From positions 4,405,001-4,469,000 of the forward strand of contig NZ_CP039740.1 of the NCBI RefSeq assembly GCF_005153485.1: a DNA stretch of 64,000 nucleotides, written 5' to 3'. Source of the DNA: Pseudolabrys sp. FHR47. GTDB taxonomy: Bacteria > Pseudomonadota > Alphaproteobacteria > Rhizobiales > Xanthobacteraceae. Positions 7,499 through 31,879 of the stretch are shown here, one piece after another. The translations under genes were made by a program, and so were the position numbers. How positions within the stretch are numbered: position 1 is the first letter of the stretch; every line of letters starts with the position of its first letter. Under the pieces are notes generated by a model. It had not been told where the DNA came from. It saw only the letters and a program-made list of their open reading frames with translations, and made no database searches.

Positions 7499-7588
7499 TG
7501 GCGGAGAGGGAGGGATTCGAACCCCCGATACGGTTGCCCGTATGCCGCATTTCGAGTGCGGTGCTTTCAACCGCTCAGCCACCTCTCC
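7499..7588 (-). tRNA. tRNA-Ser (anticodon CGA)
   Basis: On the minus strand the acceptor stem GGAGAGG (7588-7582) pairs with CCTCTCC (7509-7503), followed by discriminator G and an encoded CCA (7501-7499). The anticodon stem-loop reads CCGCA-CTCGAAA-TGCGG, giving anticodon CGA, which decodes UCG. The long variable arm (CATACGGGCAACCGTA) is typical of a class II tRNA, and the T-arm carries GGTTCGAATCC. Length is 90 nt including CCA. Confidence 0.96.
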
Positions 7589-22655: not shown

Positions 22656-23252
22656 TTACTTCTCGCACAAGCGGCGCGGGCCTTCACTCGGCTGGTAGGT
22701 GCAATCGGACGCGGTGAAGGAGATGTAAGCGCTGGTGCAGGCGGCGATATTGCAGGTCGCCTGCGCGCGGATATCCGATCGCGGCGCGCTGGCCGCGGCC
22801 GGCGGCGTACCGCGCGTGCAGAGCCGGCGCGGCCCGTCACTCGGTTGATAGGTGCAATCGGACGCGGTGAACGAACGATAGGCGCGCTCGCACGCCTGGA
22901 TATCGCACAGCGGCGCGGCCGCCGTGGCCGGCGCGACGGGCTCCGGCACGACAAGCGGCGTAGGTTCTGGCGCGACGGCGGCAACAACCGGAGTCGGCTG
23001 AACAGGTGGCGTCGGCGCGGCGGCGACCGGTGCAGACGACACAGCCTTGCCCGCTGTCTCGGCCGGCGGGCTCGCCGGTGTGACGACGTCCACCGGTTTA
23101 GTCACGGCCTGCTGCACGGCCGGCGGGGCGGCCGCGCGCAACTGGTATGGACTCGCCGGCATCGGCGTCATCGGCGCCGACATCCACTCGACGCCGAACA
23201 CGACGCTGCCCGCCGAGATCGCGAGAACGATGAATGCCACGAGATACTTCAT
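22656..23252 (-). CDS. BA14K-like repeat protein with proline/alanine linker, secreted or membrane-anchored
   Basis: 198 residues. N-terminal hydrophobic segment (MKYLVAFIVLAISAGSVVFG) followed by a Pro/Ala/Val-rich linker to about residue 110. The C-terminus has two near-identical units: CDIQACERAYRSFTASDCTY then QPSDGPRRLC, and CNIAACTSAYISFTASDCTY then QPSEGPRRLC, each with four Cys. This pattern is like the BA14K family of rhizobial and Brucella surface proteins (C..AYRSY..........G.RRLC), but with extra Cys and duplicated. Function unknown; a role at the cell surface is likely. Divergent from the MacA-like gene, convergent with the hydrolase gene. Confidence 0.7.
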   Translation of the reverse strand: MKYLVAFIVLAISAGSVVFGVEWMSAPMTPMPASPYQLRAAAPPAVQQAVTKPVDVVTPASPPAETAGKAVSSAPVAAAPTPPVQPTPVVAAVAPEPTPLVVPEPVAPATAAAPLCDIQACERAYRSFTASDCTYQPSDGPRRLCTRGTPPAAASAPRSDIRAQATCNIAACTSAYISFTASDCTYQPSEGPRRLCEK

Positions 23253-23479
23253 AGAGCCGCCGCGCCCAACCGGGCCAGGATGGAATTGTTTCTGAAATAT
23301 AGTGAGACCGGGGCCTGGTTGAAAGAGGTGATTTCCTAAGAAAATCAGTGGCTTTTGCGGGAACTTGGGCGCCTGGCGCGGAACGGCGAGCCGTATAAAC
23401 CAGGATACAGACTGTTACGCAGTCGCCATGCCGTTGACCAATATCAACACACTCCAACCGCGATCGAACACAATAAACA

Positions 23480-24790
23480 ATGGCATTGGCCCGAACGACA
23501 AACACCCCGATGACCAAGCCCCTCGATCCCAAGGAACACCTCGATATCCAGGCCGTGCTCGGCCTCGATTCCGCGCCCGCGTCACGCTGGGCGAAGTATC
23601 GCAAGCCGCTGCTGACAGCGGCCGGCCTCGCCGCGCTCGCGCTTCTGGGGGCGTATTGGATGTTCGGCGGAAACGACAGCGGTGTGACTTACGTCACCGA
23701 ACCGGTCACGCGCGGCAACCTGACGGTCATCGTCACCGCCACCGGATCGGTGCAGCCGACCAAGAAGGTCGACGTTTCAAGCGAACTGTCCGGCACAATC
23801 CGCAACGTCTTGGTCGACTACAATTCGCCGGTGAAGGCCGGCCAGCTGCTGGCCGAACTCGACACCACCAAGCTTTCGGCAACGCTCAACAGCTCGCGCG
23901 CCAAACTCGCTGCCGCCAAGGCGAAAGTTGCCGAGGCGGAAGTGACCGTCCAAGAGAAAGAGCGCAACTATGCCCGCAACAAGGCGCTGATGCCTGACCG
24001 GGCAATCTCGCAGAAGGACCACGATCAGGCCGTCGCCGAGCGCGACCGCGCCATCACCTCGCTGGAAAGCGCGCGCGCCGACGTCACCGTCGCGGAAGCG
24101 GACGTCCAGGTCGACGAAACGAACCTGAGGAAGGCCTCGATCATTTCACCGACCAACGGCGTGGTGCTGACGCGCAGCATCGATCCGGGTTCGACCGTTG
24201 CCGCCTCGCTGTCCGCGCCGACCTTGTTCACCATTGCCGAAGACCTGCGGAAGATGGAGGTCCGCGTCGATGTCGACGAAGCCGACGTGGGCCAGGTGCA
24301 GGACGGCCAGATGGCCACCTTCAGCGTCGATGCTTTTCCCAATCGCAAGTTTCCCGCCCGCATCCGCTACACGCGCTACTCGTCCGAAACGACAAACAAT
24401 GTCGTCACCTACAAGGCCATCCTCGACGTCGACAATTCCGAGTTGCTGCTGCGGCCCGGCATGACGGCGACGGCCGAAATCAAGGTGAAGGAGGTTCAGG
24501 ACGCACTGCTCATCCCCAATGCGGCGCTGCGCTATTCGCCGCCGGCAACGACGGCGGCAACGGACAACCGCAGCCTGCTCAGCCGCATTCTGCCCGGACC
24601 GCCGCGCCTGCGCACCGCGACGCCGCGCGAGGAAGCCGGCCAGAACCGCACCGTCTGGGTGCTGCGCGATGGCACGGCGGTCGCACAACGCATCGCCATC
24701 GGCGCGAGCGACGGCAAACGCACCGAAGTGCTGAGCGGCGACCTGCAGGCGGGAGCGGCCATCATCCTCGACCAGTCGACGCGCAAGTGA
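23480..24790 (+). CDS. MacA-like periplasmic adaptor (membrane fusion protein, HlyD/RND type)
   Basis: 436 residues. One transmembrane anchor near residues 45-62 (LTAAGLAALALLGAYWMF), then the lipoyl/beta-barrel part (VTATGSVQPTKKVDVSSELS) interrupted by a long coiled-coil hairpin (LNSSRAKLAAAKAKVAEAEV to ARADVTVAEADVQVDETNL), then SIISPTNGVVLTRSIDPG and a C-terminal beta-barrel with ELLLRPGMTATAEIKVKEV. It would join an inner-membrane ABC exporter to an outer-membrane channel. The following two genes encode the ABC parts. ATG 23480 and ATG 23510 are both possible starts; neither has a strong ribosome site. Confidence 0.88.
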   Translation: MALARTTNTPMTKPLDPKEHLDIQAVLGLDSAPASRWAKYRKPLLTAAGLAALALLGAYWMFGGNDSGVTYVTEPVTRGNLTVIVTATGSVQPTKKVDVSSELSGTIRNVLVDYNSPVKAGQLLAELDTTKLSATLNSSRAKLAAAKAKVAEAEVTVQEKERNYARNKALMPDRAISQKDHDQAVAERDRAITSLESARADVTVAEADVQVDETNLRKASIISPTNGVVLTRSIDPGSTVAASLSAPTLFTIAEDLRKMEVRVDVDEADVGQVQDGQMATFSVDAFPNRKFPARIRYTRYSSETTNNVVTYKAILDVDNSELLLRPGMTATAEIKVKEVQDALLIPNAALRYSPPATTAATDNRSLLSRILPGPPRLRTATPREEAGQNRTVWVLRDGTAVAQRIAIGASDGKRTEVLSGDLQAGAAIILDQSTRK

Positions 24791-24803
24791 CGGGAGCGAG
24801 GCC

Positions 24804-25520
24804 GTGACCGACGCCGCGCCCTTGCCGCTCATCCGGTTTCGCTCGGTCAGCAAGATCTACGGCACCGGTACCGCGGCCGTGCACGCCCTCGATAATGTCG
24901 ACTTCACCATCGAGACCGGCGAGTTCGTTGCCATCATGGGCCCGTCCGGCTCGGGCAAGTCGACGGCCATGAACATTATCGGCTGCCTCGATACACCGAC
25001 CTCGGGCGATTACCTGCTCAAGGGTGTCGAGGTCGGACGGCTGGCGCACGATCAACGGGCTCTGATCCGCCGTCATTTGCTCGGCTTCGTGTTTCAGGGC
25101 TTCAATCTGCTCGCACGCACCACGGCGCTCGAGAACGTCGAACTGCCTCTGATCTATCGCGGTATGCCGTCGACCGAACGGCAGAAATTCGCGGCGCGCG
25201 CGCTCGAGCGCGTCGGCCTGTCCGGGCGCGGGCACCATACGTCCAACGAACTGTCCGGCGGCCAGCAGCAGCGCGTCGCCATCGCGCGCGCGATCGTCAC
25301 CGATCCGGCGGTGCTTCTCGCCGACGAGCCGACGGGCAACCTCGACACCAAGACCAGCCACGAGATCATGCGGCTCATCACCAGCCTCAACCGCGATCAG
25401 GGCATGACCGTGGTGATGGTGACGCACGAGACCGACATCGCCGCCTATGCGAGTCGCCTCCTGCGTTTCGTCGACGGCAAACTGGAGAGCGATACCGTCA
25501 ACAAGGATCGGGCCGCCTGA
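24804..25520 (+). CDS. ABC transporter ATP-binding protein (MacB-type ATPase)
   Basis: 238 residues, GTG start 14 bases after the adaptor stop. Complete ATPase: Walker [11 protein letters not shown]-loop [13 protein letters not shown], signature [14 protein letters not shown], Walker [13 protein letters not shown] and H-loop [10 protein letters not shown]. It matches the LolD/MacB-type clade and would drive the permease encoded next. In Enterobacteria MacB is a single polypeptide with fused ATPase and permease; here the two are separate. The export substrate is unknown (macrolide, peptide or lipid-like in relatives). Confidence 0.92.
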
Positions 25521-26725
25521 TGCTTGTCGAAGTCATCAGATTGGCGTTCCAGGCGATCAGCCGCAACCCGTTGCGGTCGTTCCTGACCGTGCTCGGCATT
25601 GTCATCGGCGTCGGAGCGGTGATCGCCATGGTGACTGTCGGCAACGGCACCACCGCCAAGGTCACCGCCGATCTCGCCAAGCTCGGCTCCAACCTCTTGT
25701 CGGTCAGCCCGGGGCAGCTGGGGCCGGGCCGCGCCAGTTCCGACGCCAAGGCCTTCAACTCACGCGACGTCGAGGTGATGAAGACTCAGCTCACCGGCAT
25801 CAAGGCCGTCGCGCCGGTCTCGCAGAAGTCCGTCACACTGGTTTACGGTTCCGAAAGCCGCACAACGCCGGTCACCGGAACCGACAACGATTATTTCATC
25901 ACCCAGGACTGGCAAATGATCTCTGGGCGCCAGTTCTTCGACACCGAGATTCGCGGCGGCCGTACCGCCTGCATCATCGGCACGACCGTTCGCGACAAGC
26001 TGTTCGGCCCGGTCGATCCGCTGAGCCGCAGCATCCGCGTCGGCAATGTGTCCTGCGAAATCATCGGACTGCTCGAGACCAAGGGCCAGTCGAGCTTCGG
26101 CACCGATCAAGACGATATCGTGTTGATGCCGCTCCGCACGTTCCAACGGCGCCTGGCCGGCAACACGGACATCAATCGCGTCATGGTATCGGCCAAGGAC
26201 GGCGTCGAGACCGCCAAGGTACAAGGAGACATCGCGCGCATCCTGCGCGAGCGGCGCAATATCGGCCCCGGCAAGGACGACGATTTCACAGTTCTCGACA
26301 TGAAGCAGATCGCTCAGACGACCGCGGGCACGACAGCCATGCTGACCGCGCTGCTTGGTGCGGTGGCGGCGGTGAGCCTTCTGGTCGGCGGCATCGGGAT
26401 CATGAACATCATGTTGGTGTCGGTGACCGAGCGCACCCGCGAGATCGGCATCCGGCTCGCCATCGGCGCGCTGGAACGGCAAGTGCTGTCGCAGTTCCTG
26501 GTCGAAGCGGTGGTGCTGTCCCTGTTCGGCGGCCTGATTGGCATCTTGCTCGGTCTGGGTCTGGCCTTTGCCGCCACGCGCGGCCTGCAGGTGCCGTTCA
26601 CCATCGACGGGCGCATCATCGTCGTCGCCTTCGCCTTTTCCGCGCTGGTGGGCATCGTCTTCGGCTACTTCCCGGCCCGCCGCGCGGCCCGGCTCGATCC
26701 GATCGAAGCGCTGCGGCACGAATAG
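25520..26725 (+). CDS. ABC transporter permease (MacB/FtsX type)
   Basis: 401-residue permease starting inside the previous stop codon (TGATG, 1-base overlap). Topology is typical of MacB: one N-terminal helix (FLTVLGIVIGVGAVIAMVTV), a large periplasmic MacB_PCD domain (about residues 45-270), and three C-terminal helices in the FtsX domain (ALLGAVAAVSLLVGGIGIMN, LFGGLIGILLGLGLAFAATR and VVAFAFSALVGIVFGYFPAR). NIMLVSVTERTREIGIRLAI is a family hallmark. Forms a tripartite exporter with the two upstream gene products. Confidence 0.92.
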   Translation: MLVEVIRLAFQAISRNPLRSFLTVLGIVIGVGAVIAMVTVGNGTTAKVTADLAKLGSNLLSVSPGQLGPGRASSDAKAFNSRDVEVMKTQLTGIKAVAPVSQKSVTLVYGSESRTTPVTGTDNDYFITQDWQMISGRQFFDTEIRGGRTACIIGTTVRDKLFGPVDPLSRSIRVGNVSCEIIGLLETKGQSSFGTDQDDIVLMPLRTFQRRLAGNTDINRVMVSAKDGVETAKVQGDIARILRERRNIGPGKDDDFTVLDMKQIAQTTAGTTAMLTALLGAVAAVSLLVGGIGIMNIMLVSVTERTREIGIRLAIGALERQVLSQFLVEAVVLSLFGGLIGILLGLGLAFAATRGLQVPFTIDGRIIVVAFAFSALVGIVFGYFPARRAARLDPIEALRHE

Positions 26726-26855
26726 GCCGGAGGCTCGCATTACTGCTGGAGCTTCGAATGTGGCAATACAGAGCCTTGACGACAGCTCCGGCGAATCTGC
26801 GTATTACCTTGTAGGTTCTGATGCCAACCAAATGTAAATTCTTGGCACAACTGAC

Positions 26856-29800
26856 ATGCGCTTCTTGCCTGACGGCCCTGACGTCCCGCCTGATCTGGTC
26901 TCTGCTCAGGAGAAAGGACAGACAATCTTTGTATGTGGCGCGGGTGTATCGCGCCGCGCTGGATTACCTTTGTTTCGTGGTTTGGTCGAAGGCGTTTACC
27001 AGCAGTTGGGCGAAGACTGGAACCTGCATCCAGCCGAACGCGAGGGGATGCAGACAGATGGCGCGCTGGAAGGCCAGTATGACCGCGTGCTGCGTTGCCT
27101 GGAGCGACGGTTAGCGGCTTCGGATGCACTGCGCAACCGTGGCATGCGTGAGCGCATTCGAACAGCGGTACGGCATGTCCTTGCGCCGCCCGCCAATGCC
27201 GATCTGGCCAATCACCTCGCATTGTTGGAGCTGTCGCGGGACGCGGAAGGCCGCAATCGGATTCTTACCACCAACTTCGATACGCTGTTTGAGAGAGCCT
27301 GGCATGACAAGCATCAGTCGGCGATTGCCACGCATGCCGGCATGGCCATGCCGCAGCCTAAAGTCGCGGCGTGTACGGGCGTCTTGCACCTTCATGGCCG
27401 GCTTGCCGACCCCATGCCGGAATTGGCGGCGTTTGATACCGACCTCGTGCTGACAAGCGCCGAGTTTGGCGACGCCTATCTCCGGTCTGGCTGGGCATCG
27501 CGTTACATCTATGATCTCGTGCGGGCCTATACGGTCGTGCTGGTTGGCTATCAGGCTGATGATCCGCCGATGCGGTACTTGCTTGAAGCACTGGAGGCAG
27601 ACCGCGAGCGCTATCCAGACTTGCAGAAAGTTTATGCCTTCGCTTCTTGCGAGCCCGGCCAGGAGGAACTGGTGCGCGCTCTTTGGGCCGCAAAGGCAGT
27701 CGAGCCCATTCTCTACACAGTCAACAATGACGATCACGACGCCCTTTATTCCAGCCTGCTGGAATGGCGGAACTATGCGGAGGACCCAACAGCTTGGCGT
27801 CGTGAACGCTTACGCCCTATCCTTGCCGCGCCGCCAAGCGCGACCAGCGATGAACGCAAACAGGAATGCACAAACCTGCTAGCTCACGGCGACGCCTGTC
27901 AATTGTTGGGGGAGCTGTCGCCGCCGGCCGAATGGCTTCCGGTTCTGATTGAGAAGCGCGTCTTCGACCGAGGCAAGGAACTGCCAGGCCAATGGATCGC
28001 AAAACGCATCAACGATCCGGCGATGATCCGCGCCGCCACTACGATCGCCGCATTTGACGAACAATTACGCTGGCATATCGGACAGGCGCTGGAACGCGAC
28101 CAGCAGCAGGTTTCGCCATTACGTGCTCGGGCGTGGCGTTTGATGCTGACGGCAAAGCGGCCACGCGCGGCAGATGTTCTGGATGATAGCTGGTATCAGG
28201 CCTCTCCCGCGATTAAGCGCGGTCAGGTGGATTTCGAAACGCGCCGTCTTGTCAGCCGAATTCTACGCCCCCGACTGACGATCGGCAAAGCCTGGCGCTG
28301 GGACCATGAGACCCGCGACCCTGATGCAGCGGAGGCGCTTCACGATCTCCTCAAGCTTGAATTTGATCCGGCGGAGCATCCTCCAGCCACCGAAATTCTT
28401 GCGGCGTGGCCTCAAGACATCGAACATGAGATTGCGCTATTTCAAATGCTGGACCGGGCGCTGCTCGACGCGATGGAGGAAGCGCAGGATATTGGGCTAC
28501 TGGACGGCTGGGATCGGATCAGCTTTGACGTGCCATCCGTAGCGGCGCACAGACAGAACGCACATCGCCACGGATTTTATCCGATTACCCGCGCGCTCGC
28601 GGACCTTTGGCTCCGCATCGTCGCGCGCGATGCCACCCGGGCGCGGGCGCTGGTTCAACTATGGACTAATTCAGCCCACTTGCTGCTTCGGCGATTGACG
28701 TTGTTTGCATATGAGCATGCGGCCTTCTCGCCATCGGAGGCCGCTATGGCCGTCATGAACCTCGACGAGAAAATGTTTTGGGGCAACGCCCGCGTCGAGA
28801 TCATGCGCCTTCTTGTGGCGCGCTGGTCGCAGTTCAGCGATCCAGATCGTGCGGCGATTGAAACACGCATACGGAACGGGGAGCCGCGCGATCTATTTCC
28901 TGCGGATGCATTTGAGAACGATGAGGAATGGCGCTCGGTTCATGACTCTTCCATATACAGACGCTTGAAACGGATAGAGCTTGCGGGCGGCACGCTTTCG
29001 CCTGAAAGCCAGAAGGTCATCGCGGAGATTGCGGCAAGGCATCCGGAATGGCAGCCGAGCCCGGGAGACCGCGACGACTTTCATGTCTGGCACGAGATGC
29101 GCTCGGGCCCCGACGGGGAACCGGGGCTGCTTGCGAAGATCGCGGACGACCGGCTGGTGCGGGAAGCCATGCGCCTCCAACGCGAAAGACATTTCGATCA
29201 GGGAGATGTTTGGCGGGTATTTTGCTCTGCTGATCCGGAGAGAGCCTTACGCGGCCTTCAACTGGAAGCAGCCGGCAATCAATGGGAGCCGGAAGCATGG
29301 CGTTATTTGATCTGGGCAGCGAACGAAAAAGGCGATGCTTCGTTCCAATTCACGCTGGCCGGTCTCTTGTTGCAAATGCCCGACGCCCCTTTATCCGAGC
29401 TTTTACCGGCAGCAACCTCCTGGCTGCAACGGCGGCGCGAGGTTCTGTCCGCCACCGAGAGCATAGAAAACCCACCACAATTTTTTCCGCTTTGGGATCG
29501 CTTTGCCGACCTCGTCTATCTGTCGTCGGACGATGCGTCTGAGAAAGATGAATTGGGCGACGATCTGCTGACGGAATCGCTCAACAGGCCAGGCGGCACG
29601 CTCGCATGGGCATTACTGGATGCGCTGGGTGCGATGAAACCCGACCGCAATGCAGGCTTTGGCGCGGCGCTATTAACACGGTTTGATCGGCTCGCCTCTG
29701 CCGGTGGTCGGGCCGGATTGCTGGCGCGGGTGTATCTCGCCCATTCATTGGCTTATCTCGACGCGGTAGACCCGAATTGGGTTCAGACACATTTTGAACC

Positions 29801-30563
29801 GAGGTTTGCCTGGGGACATCCCGAAGCGCTGCCGCTTTGGCGGTCCTTTGCCAACGACGGAGTTGGCTCTGCCCGGCTATTCAACGCCCTGAAGCCCGCG
29901 GCGCTCGCGGCTTTCGAACGTCAAGAGTTGTCCGACAATGAGTTTGAAGGCGTGATGTCGAACCTTCTGAGCGTCGCCCTCTGGCACCAACGCGGTGAAG
30001 CGCCGGAATATGAGCTCTCGGCGGCAGAAGTCAGGCGGGCGCTGACGGTGGGGCCGGCTTCGGCGCGCCGGAATGTCTCGTGGAACCTCTGGCGCATGAT
30101 GGGCAAGCCGGATCAGGAAGGCTCGGACGAGGAGGATGCCGGGACGGCCCCTATCGATAGGCCAACCCGGTGGCGGACGATAATTGGGCCGCTTTTCCAG
30201 AGTATATGGCCGCTGGACGCGCGACTGCGCTCAGAGAGCACGACACAAAATCTTGTCTTGATGGCGCTGGAAACAGAAGATGCGTTTCCAGAAGCAGTCG
30301 AGGCTATCCTGGACGTAATTGTGCCTTACGAGCTTTATCAGCTCTCGCATTCTTTACGCTTGGAGAGCAAACACAGCGAATTGGTCCGGCGATACCCTCT
30401 TTCGTTTGTAAGGCTGGCCAACGCGCTAATTGATCCCGCTGCGTTCCGCGTCCCAAGTGATCTCGCAGGCTTTCTGCAAGAATGTGCGGCCGCCGATCCG
30501 ACGGTGGTCAACGATCCGGCCTATGTCCGTCTCAACGGGTTGCGCCGGCAGCGCAATGCTTAG
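26856..30563 (+). CDS. SIR2-domain protein, probable stand-alone anti-phage NADase (DSR-like), 1235 aa
   Basis: Very long single gene. The N-terminal 300 residues form a SIR2 (SIR2_2-type) domain: FVCGAGVSRRAGLPLF at about 25-40 (NAD loop), TTNFD at 138-142 with Asn140, HLHGR at 178-182 with His180, and LVGYQADDPPMR at 229-240. These are the places where DSR2 and ThsA carry catalytic Asn and His. The remaining roughly 900 residues are helix-rich with no Walker A motif, so it is not a STAND ATPase. That layout matches the DSR1/DSR2 anti-phage proteins, in which the C-terminal region senses a phage protein and the SIR2 domain depletes NAD. Upstream in-frame stop at 26835-26837 makes ATG 26856 the first start. 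No partner gene is visible on either side, and GC is lower than in proB. Similarity to a characterised DSR cannot be proven here. Confidence 0.85.
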   Translation: MRFLPDGPDVPPDLVSAQEKGQTIFVCGAGVSRRAGLPLFRGLVEGVYQQLGEDWNLHPAEREGMQTDGALEGQYDRVLRCLERRLAASDALRNRGMRERIRTAVRHVLAPPANADLANHLALLELSRDAEGRNRILTTNFDTLFERAWHDKHQSAIATHAGMAMPQPKVAACTGVLHLHGRLADPMPELAAFDTDLVLTSAEFGDAYLRSGWASRYIYDLVRAYTVVLVGYQADDPPMRYLLEALEADRERYPDLQKVYAFASCEPGQEELVRALWAAKAVEPILYTVNNDDHDALYSSLLEWRNYAEDPTAWRRERLRPILAAPPSATSDERKQECTNLLAHGDACQLLGELSPPAEWLPVLIEKRVFDRGKELPGQWIAKRINDPAMIRAATTIAAFDEQLRWHIGQALERDQQQVSPLRARAWRLMLTAKRPRAADVLDDSWYQASPAIKRGQVDFETRRLVSRILRPRLTIGKAWRWDHETRDPDAAEALHDLLKLEFDPAEHPPATEILAAWPQDIEHEIALFQMLDRALLDAMEEAQDIGLLDGWDRISFDVPSVAAHRQNAHRHGFYPITRALADLWLRIVARDATRARALVQLWTNSAHLLLRRLTLFAYEHAAFSPSEAAMAVMNLDEKMFWGNARVEIMRLLVARWSQFSDPDRAAIETRIRNGEPRDLFPADAFENDEEWRSVHDSSIYRRLKRIELAGGTLSPESQKVIAEIAARHPEWQPSPGDRDDFHVWHEMRSGPDGEPGLLAKIADDRLVREAMRLQRERHFDQGDVWRVFCSADPERALRGLQLEAAGNQWEPEAWRYLIWAANEKGDASFQFTLAGLLLQMPDAPLSELLPAATSWLQRRREVLSATESIENPPQFFPLWDRFADLVYLSSDDASEKDELGDDLLTESLNRPGGTLAWALLDALGAMKPDRNAGFGAALLTRFDRLASAGGRAGLLARVYLAHSLAYLDAVDPNWVQTHFEPRFAWGHPEALPLWRSFANDGVGSARLFNALKPAALAAFERQELSDNEFEGVMSNLLSVALWHQRGEAPEYELSAAEVRRALTVGPASARRNVSWNLWRMMGKPDQEGSDEEDAGTAPIDRPTRWRTIIGPLFQSIWPLDARLRSESTTQNLVLMALETEDAFPEAVEAILDVIVPYELYQLSHSLRLESKHSELVRRYPLSFVRLANALIDPAAFRVPSDLAGFLQECAAADPTVVNDPAYVRLNGLRRQRNA

Positions 30564-30748
30564 ACCAATGGCTAGCGCGTCGATAGCGTTCATACGCCGT
30601 ATCCGCAAAGCGCCCGCTCACAACCAGAGCGTGGCGGACGGAGCCCTGCCTGGGATCGGCTAGGCTCCCGGATGATCGGGCACCCCTTACGGGCGCGGGA
30701 CACGGCGTGCTAGACACCCGGCGCAACCATTACGCCGCTGCCGGGACC

Positions 30749-31879
30749 ATGTCGAAAACGCCTGCCCTTACCGATTTCCGCCGCATCGTCATCAAGGTCG
30801 GCTCGTCGCTGCTGGTCGATTCCGAGGCCGGTGAGCTCAAGCGCGCGTGGCTGGCGTCGCTGGTCGATGACATTGCGAAATTGCATGGCGAGAAACGCGA
30901 CGTGCTGGTGGTTTCGTCAGGCGCCATCGCCTCGGCGCGCGCGACCTTGAAGCTGCCGCGCGGCGCGCTGCGTCTGGAGGAAGCGCAGGCCGCCGCCGCG
31001 GTCGGGCAGATTGCGCTGGCGCGCTCCTGGTCGGAGACCCTGAGCGCGCACAACATCACCGCCGGACAAATTCTGCTGACGCTCACCGACACCGAAGAGC
31101 GCCGCCGCTATCTCAATGCGCGCGAGACCATCGACAAGCTTCTGGAATGGCGCGTCGTGCCGGTGATCAACGAGAACGACACCGTCGCCACCAGCGAAAT
31201 CCGCTATGGCGACAATGACCGCCTCGCCGCGCGCGTCGCGACGATGGTGAGTGCTGACCTGCTGGTACTGCTGTCGGATATCGACGGCCTCTATGACAAG
31301 CCGCCGGCGCCGGGCAACGACGCCAAGCTCATTCCGGTGGTGCCGCGCATCACCGCCGAGATCGAAAGCATGGCCGGCGCCTCGGGCTCCGAATTGTCGC
31401 GCGGCGGCATGGTCACCAAGATCGAGGCCGGCAAGATCGCCACCACCGCCGGCGTCCACATGGTCATCGCCTCGGGCCGCGTCATGCATCCGCTCAAGGC
31501 TATTGCCGAGGGCGGGCCCTGCACCTGGTTCCTGACGCCGGCCAATCCGGTGACGTCGCGCAAGAAGTGGATCGCCGGCTCGCTCGAGCCGCATGGCGCG
31601 CTGCATATCGACGATGGCGCAGTGAAGGCATTGCGCAGCGGCAAGAGCCTGCTGCCGGCGGGCGTGAAAAAAATCGACGGCGCATTTCAGCGCGGCGACG
31701 CTGTGATCTTGCGCGGCCCCGATGGCGCCGAAGTCGGCCGCGGGCTGGTCGCCTACGATTTCGCCGACGCCGAGAAGATCATCGGCCGCTCATCGGCCGA
31801 CGTGCAGACCATCCTCGGCTTCACCGGCCGCACCGTGATGGTGCACCGGGACGACCTCGTGATGGGCGGCGGCCTCTAA
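30749..31879 (+). CDS. proB: Glutamate 5-kinase
   Basis: 376 residues; first step of proline synthesis, phosphorylating glutamate with ATP. The amino-acid-kinase domain shows [71 protein letters not shown] and SDIDGLYD with [15 protein letters not shown]-terminal PUA domain (about 275-376) is present, as in the long bacterial form. ATG 30749 is the family start; the frame is open to 30707. proA lies downstream on the same strand. Confidence 0.95.

Follow-up and report, generated by a model that had tools for sequence, protein, structure and literature searches.

The 64,000-nucleotide stretch of contig NZ_CP039740.1 from Pseudolabrys sp. FHR47 analysed here, referred to as the window, carries a long gene for a DSR1-like SIR2 protein (the window protein). 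The gene and the parts of its product were located as follows.

26856..30563, + strand: gene of the DSR1-like SIR2 protein; one open reading frame (ORF) with an ATG start, 1235 amino acids (aa) and no internal stop
26856..27725, + strand: N-terminal SIR2 NADase domain, about residues 1-290, from Pfam SIR2_2 and the model of residues 1-1200
27273..27275, + strand: codon of N140, aligned to the catalytic N133 of DSR2 and invariant
27393..27395, + strand: codon of H180, aligned to the catalytic H171 of DSR2 and invariant
27768..30560, + strand: C-terminal alpha-solenoid, residues 305-1235, presumed sensor, from AlphaFold2 and a profile match to the E. coli Dsr1 C-terminus

The SIR2 motifs GAGVS (residue 28), TTNFD (138), HLHG (178) and GYQADDPPMR (231) were all present in the N-terminal domain. 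Pfam SIR2_2 matched residues 135-285 with an expectation value (E) of 2e-20, and in the model of residues 1-1200 strands alternated with helices between residues 23 and 288. In the profile alignment to the PDB, with positions counted by eye, N140 fell on N133 of DSR2 and H180 on H171. Both residues were invariant, in 19 of 19 rows of one alignment and in 61 of 61 of a larger one. Passages of PMC10973363 and PMC11087589 report that the N133A/H171A mutant of DSR2 lost cleavage of nicotinamide adenine dinucleotide (NAD+). Pfam, searched up to E 1, gave no match outside the SIR2 region; a DUF4020 assignment was rejected, with no hit in the Pfam scan of the window protein and no paper in the literature search. 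The ratio of non-synonymous to synonymous substitution rates (dN/dS) was 0.09-0.14 in three pairs of fused relatives, i.e. purifying selection.

Both parts of the protein were homologous to DSR1. The two PADLOC Dsr1 models matched it with E of 7.9e-139 and 8.5e-132, and NCBIfam Dsr1 (NF041818) with 2.3e-169 and 565.6 bits, in two stretches (model positions 1-303 and 479-1261) corresponding to the SIR2 domain and the C-terminal part. As controls for NF041818, the Dsr1 of an E. coli plasmid scored 1674.1 bits, L109, the nearest relative of the window protein, 526.7, L008 467.6 and L128 398.5. A C-terminal profile (A4) matched the C-terminus of E. coli plasmid Dsr1 with probability 100 and E of 1.1e-65 over 873 columns; the 61 rows of A4 included two from the Dsr1 clade (L156 and L182), which possibly helped this match, and the single-sequence PADLOC and NCBIfam matches are independent of A4. 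The identity to E. coli Dsr1 was 39% in the SIR2 domain and 21% in the C-terminal part.

A profile search with alignment A2 gave 97 relatives, of which 80 loci were kept; a search of genome contigs with the single window protein as query found no relative. These 80 genome loci and 24 others were the input to the trees. After the 900-aa and BLAST filters (85 proteins) and removal of L138 (1028 aa) and the duplicates L094 and L095, 82 proteins and the window protein made up 83 rows. In a careful 42-row tree, the NCBI-type Dsr1 rows formed one clade (support 100/100), and the window protein lay across a 100/99 branch, within a ten-row clade (100/99) whose members also grouped at 99 in a quick tree of all 83 rows. 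This clade comprised proteins from Acetobacteraceae, Lysobacteraceae, Rhizobiaceae, Roseomonadaceae, Geminicoccaceae, another Rhodospirillales bacterium and Myxococcus, and the tree row nearest to the window protein was 62% identical. Judged by sequence, the window protein is DSR1-like and lies outside the curated Dsr1 equivalog group, since both of its parts are homologous to Dsr1, yet its score is below the equivalog cut-off; it appears to be a new branch of a known kind.

In a sample across the phylum, 44 of 398 genomes matched the Dsr1 family at 0.001, nine of them above the cut-off. Matches to the window protein were found in 71 plasmid records, with at least 80% of the protein covered in 25. 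On three rhizobial plasmids (L009, L010 and L121) the DSR1-like gene lay directly 3′ of repABC, as if travelling with the replication unit; the placement in L121 is by similarity to the other two. A viral origin was also rejected: no match was found in 50,697 phage records, nor in viral contigs searched with peptide patterns of the window protein, which reach close relatives only.

The C-terminal part was predicted as a nearly all-helical solenoid. AlphaFold2, run on residues 305-1235 with the 61-row alignment, gave a mean predicted local distance difference test score (pLDDT) of 91.6 and a predicted template modelling score (pTM) of 0.67, with 57 helices of at least four residues each and two short strands. 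The window protein contained no Walker-A pattern, and none occurred past residue 300 in any of the 83 family rows. Foldseek searches of the PDB matched this model weakly to general helical-repeat proteins (CAND1, transportin, SF3B1 and similar); the best E was 3.4e-4, the TM-score normalized to the query did not exceed 0.30 in the best 50 matches, and neither DSR2 nor a STAND protein was among those 50. Against viral models, Foldseek returned nothing at 0.001. For the model of residues 1-1200 (pLDDT 88.4, pTM 0.59), DSR2 chains occupied ranks 1-43 (best E 1.4e-9, query TM 0.19), and the rest of the best 50 were Avs5 (ranks 44, 45 and 47), a HAM-SIR2 protein, ThsA and a further chain of DSR2. 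We read these models as a protein that shares the architecture of DSR2 but probably has a C-terminal solenoid of its own. Within the ten-row clade, residues ~401-500, 851-900 and 1051-1100 were the most variable, with 27-30% mean pair identity, compared with 89% for residues 201-250; these variable stretches are candidate trigger-facing parts.

An earlier note, made from the sequence alone, had described a 1235-aa SIR2 gene with a complete SIR2 domain fused to a helix-rich part without Walker A, and had proposed a DSR-type protein, possibly of a new subtype. The domain and the helix-rich part were both recovered in one intact ORF, and neither a STAND fold nor another known fold with a non-defence role appeared among the weak matches of the C-terminal model. 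The DSR-type assignment, for which the note had suggested a profile search, was borne out by the Dsr1 profiles, the homology of both parts and the 43 top-ranked DSR2 chains. As to the new subtype, the separate clade below the curated cut-off speaks for it, as a distinction in sequence.

The modular build of some relatives is the unexpected part of our findings. Twenty of the 80 loci were left out of the trees, and 11 of these were split forms. The three-gene form was found at eight loci (L144, L145, L147, L149, L153, L158, L160 and L161), in Bradyrhizobium, Tardiphaga, Hyphomicrobium, a Xanthobacteraceae bacterium and an Acetobacteraceae bacterium. Here, three consecutive ORFs of 309-315, 575-579 and 317-322 aa encoded the SIR2 domain, a middle solenoid and an end solenoid, matching residues 1-~330, ~327-896 and ~903 onward of the window protein. 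In L145, near a contig end, only the first two ORFs were visible and the second was short (471 aa). When each ORF was begun at its earliest start codon, genes 1 and 2 overlapped by 4 bases in six of the eight loci and by 8 bases in one, and ATGA was present there in L144 too; the second junction was an 8-base overlap in four of seven. The GAGxS, TTNFD and HLHGR motifs were intact in all eight SIR2 proteins, and each gene of L147 and L153 matched consecutive parts of the Dsr1 model.

The two-gene form occurred at three Bradyrhizobium loci (L122:10001-13597, L124:9905-13597 and L157:9869-12797). The SIR2 ORF ended at window residue 324-327 and was followed, after 12 bases (37 in L157), by one solenoid ORF of 888 aa, or of at least 622 aa in L157, where it ended at the contig end. 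The first ORF of L157 lacked an exact HLHG and matched residues 1-272 only, which counts against reading this locus as a split form. The cuts in the split forms lay at window residues ~325-330 and ~900. In a family search of 295 other genomes, the split form was found in three, on contigs already counted (L149, L144 and L157). A separate case was L132:9992-13581 from Altererythrobacter, where two genes overlapping by 4 bases encode the protein and the border lies near window residue 680. The other loci outside the trees were L138 and L154, as well as L168, L176, L178, L180, L187 and L188, which matched the SIR2 part or little more.

Frameshift artefacts were rejected as the origin of the split genes because the borders agreed across genera and dN/dS was 0.10-0.28 for each of the three genes in pairs among L147, L158 and L161, which indicates purifying selection; genes 2 and 3 were saturated between L147 and L149, a result on the other side. 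Decay of L122, L124 and L157 was likewise rejected, as the stops fell at the SIR2/solenoid joint (residues 324-327) and a new ORF followed. The three-gene rows formed one group in the trees of the middle segment (97/94) and the SIR2 segment (99/92). When the two-gene rows were added, all 11 grouped (91/96), with a clade of fused rhizobial proteins adjoining. This topology points to a single separation of SIR2, after which the solenoid may have been cut later or rejoined. The weakly resolved end-segment tree disagreed: there, the split rows needed two changes, and one sufficed in 34% of bootstrap trees.

We consider it rather probable that DSR1-type immunity is modular, with the fused and split builds being one machine with fixed joints at residues ~325-330 and 900, and with one or two sensor subunits that restrain or recruit the separate NADase subunit of the split builds. 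If so, this would be a multi-component SIR2 defence system so far undescribed; neither a split DSR1 nor this clade was met in searches of open PubMed Central papers. For the DSR1 C-terminal sensor, our sequence and Foldseek searches gave no solved relative beyond general helical repeats, and the portions of the open PubMed Central literature that were searched contained no DSR1 trigger or structure. The clade offers a confidently predicted solenoid for a DSR1-type sensor. The split relatives provide natural domain borders and separate proteins, so that contacts between the subunits, or with proteins of a phage, are directly testable; such tests are hard with a single chain of 1235 residues.

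The surroundings of the gene contained two further features (names of the neighbours from reading their translations).

23480..26725, + strand: MacA/MacB-like transporter operon, not counted as part of the system; permease copies occur elsewhere in the genus
23368..30747, no strand: ~7.4 kb block (MacAB-like operon and DSR1-like gene) missing from the nearest sister genome, at a site before proB that varies in the genus

The DSR1-like gene stood between this operon upstream and proB downstream. Its guanine-cytosine (GC) content was 59.7%, against 63.7% in the window and 66.6% in proB. The GC content of third codon positions (GC3) was 0.64, compared with a mean of 0.80 (standard deviation 0.07) over 41 called ORFs of 200 or more codons; three ORFs were near or below 0.64, two of which run antisense across other called genes and may be spurious. 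The GC3 of the transporter operon, 0.83-0.86, was native-like, so the odd composition is confined to the SIR2 gene. Permeases 82-83% identical occurred on different contigs of three further species in the genus, within stretches of 9-12 kb that lacked the DSR1-like gene. Given these copies and the native-like composition, the operon may have moved independently of the DSR1-like gene.

The DSR1-like gene was absent from all ten sister loci around proB. In the nearest sister, G032 (proB 95% identical), 63 bases separated the matches to window positions 23368 and 30747. The preceding hypothetical gene lay less than 200 bases from proB in L082 and L083, ~4.3 kb before it in L077-L081 (with a GMC-oxidoreductase-like gene, by ORF reading, in L077, L078 and L081) and ~7 kb before it in L084; no such gene was located in L085. 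Among the 100 genomes compared, five, including its own, had any match to the window protein (two of 42 in its own genus besides its own genome), and none of the four matches in the other 99 was whole-length in one piece. G002 matched in the SIR2 part only (1.8e-4), and G037 at 25% identity over residues 379-1228, with one TAA and at a contig edge. A recent gain of the gene by horizontal transfer is supported by its absence from the ten sister loci, its odd composition and a tree that groups proteins across taxonomic lines. The earlier note had placed the gene alone between the transporter operon and proB and had suggested transfer from the lower GC of sampled lines; the position was as stated, the lower GC holds for the whole gene, and the sister loci, GC3 and tree agree with acquisition.

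The site upstream of proB (window 23252-30749; L076-L084) was variable in the genus, being nearly empty in L076, L082 and L083. Next to it, a small gene at window 22656-23252 had diverged further matches nearby in L076, L078, L079, L081, L083 and L084, apparently tandem copies.

ORFs within 5 kb of the 83 loci were clustered in search of a partner, and the 25 widest clusters were inspected and named from annotated members. No neighbour family occurred at more than seven of the 83 loci. The widest clusters were ABC ATPases (seven loci), integrases (five) and the neighbours of a near-identical sphingomonad group (four or five), followed by RepC (four), RepA and RepB (three each) and a few unnamed clusters at three or four. 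A fixed partner gene was rejected on this basis, and the result fits a DSR1-like protein that acts alone, a statement about gene order and not function. Around 13 relatives (L109-L121), 163 ORFs were called and 116 proteins scanned. At 1e-15, these matched seven PADLOC models (AbiD, NYN and PDC candidates) with one or two members each; AbiJ_NTD4 was present in two proteins, and integrase, resolvase and RepC domains also occurred. In the window, 48 of the 53 called ORFs were scanned and gave one PADLOC match at 1e-10, to mad3 (3e-32), probably unspecific.

We regard it as likely that the product of the window gene is a DSR1-like protein that by itself both senses phage and acts as the effector, and in which binding of a phage protein frees the SIR2 domain to hydrolyse NAD+. 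At rest, contacts within the oligomer and with a lid would most likely silence the SIR2 domain, and the C-terminal alpha-solenoid of 930 residues would survey the cell for a protein that an infecting phage produces. If DSR2 is a guide, the trigger may be one of the structural proteins, for example of the tail; according to passages of PMC10973363, the C-terminal part of DSR2 senses the infection signal, and the tail tube protein binds there and activates SIR2. Trigger binding would free the SIR2 domain for NAD+ hydrolysis via N140 and H180, and the fall in NAD+ would stop phage growth, with or without cell death. The analysis provides the intact gene, its catalytic residues, the homology of both parts to DSR1, the predicted solenoid, the lack of a recurring partner and the recent gain. 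From these we infer NADase activity, a phage trigger and protection for the window protein.

Several results weigh against this assignment. With 565.6 bits, the window protein fails the 1400-bit equivalog cut-off of NF041818 and hence curated Dsr1, and HMMER left its residues ~304-419 unaligned to Dsr1. Taken along its full length, the 1-1200 model had low TM-scores to DSR2 (query values 0.16-0.19), so the fold match rests on the SIR2 domain and the general architecture. Between the window gene and its nearest relative, synonymous sites were saturated for dN/dS. As to transfer and setting, there was no tRNA near the insertion (the sole one was at 7499), no convincing repeats at the block ends and no integrase in the block on reading the ORF list, without a profile search for one; the gene lay in no evident defence island of the window.

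The same sensor and NADase could also have a milder output: NAD+ might fall only in part, or a different NAD-derived product might be made, and the phage would be stopped with the cell left alive. A review (PMC10952713) sets DSR1 apart from other SIR2 and TIR systems in that it blocked phage and the cells did not die, and the C-terminus puts the window protein with DSR1 and not DSR2; the SIR2 motifs, however, are those of NAD+-depleting enzymes, and we hold this output to be possible, with some reserve. On the strength of that review, abortive infection is not to be presumed; of the single-gene abortive-infection system first proposed for this locus, the single gene fits and abortive infection is one possible outcome. 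That the gene is a gained defence gene now idle, through weak expression or a sensor whose phage is gone, seems improbable. It is a low-GC foreign gene beside native genes, and the same-genus copy in G037 is interrupted by a stop and cut short at a contig edge, but the window copy reads through all 1235 codons and keeps all catalytic residues. Least credible is that the long helical part is the tail of a sirtuin deacylase with a housekeeping or regulatory role. CobB-type models did match weakly (E 0.0014 to 0.11), but far below their cut-offs (best 17.7 versus 243 bits); moreover, the Dsr1 match spans both parts, and the gene is patchily present, in its own genome and, never whole-length in one piece, in four of 99 relatives.

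Among known systems, ThsA of Thoeris shares a SIR2 domain with the window protein, and its Asn and His, as given in passages of PMC11087589, are the equivalent residues. ThsA has ~480 residues, and its SLOG domain senses a signal made by ThsB (PMC10973363, in the passages seen), whereas in the window protein SIR2 is followed by a 930-residue helical solenoid, without SLOG; the PADLOC ThsA match (0.0007) was confined to residues 136-248, and Thoeris membership was rejected. Avs5 (AVAST type 5) also has a SIR2 effector and is among the fold matches of the 1-1200 model. It is described in PMC12931631 as a STAND NTPase, an identity rejected for the window protein, which has no Walker A and a nearly all-helical C-terminal model.

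DSR2 of Bacillus subtilis (PDB 8k98, 8w56 and others) combines, like the window protein, a SIR2 NADase with a long helical C-terminal region in one chain and is its best overall fold match, with ~1000 residues versus 1235. Membership in DSR2 was rejected: the C-terminal comparison of A4 with a single DSR2 relative from Priestia, which shares 69.8% identity with solved DSR2 in its SIR2 stretch, gave probability 0.1, against 100 for the positive control, E. coli Dsr1. This Priestia megaterium protein (L192:4965-7916) gave, at 1e-5, no DSR2-named hit with PADLOC 2.0.0 and no hit with NCBIfam 20.0.

DSR1 (NF041818; for example WP_053264524.1 from an E. coli plasmid) is, like the window gene, a single gene with an N-terminal SIR2 domain and the same catalytic pair, and its C-terminal region is homologous to that of the window protein almost end to end; the two differ by low identity, the score under the equivalog cut-off and a separate clade. 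The split operons keep the parts and their order, each gene aligning to a successive stretch of the window protein, whereas their SIR2 domain is a gene of its own and the solenoid is encoded by one gene (three loci) or two (eight loci).

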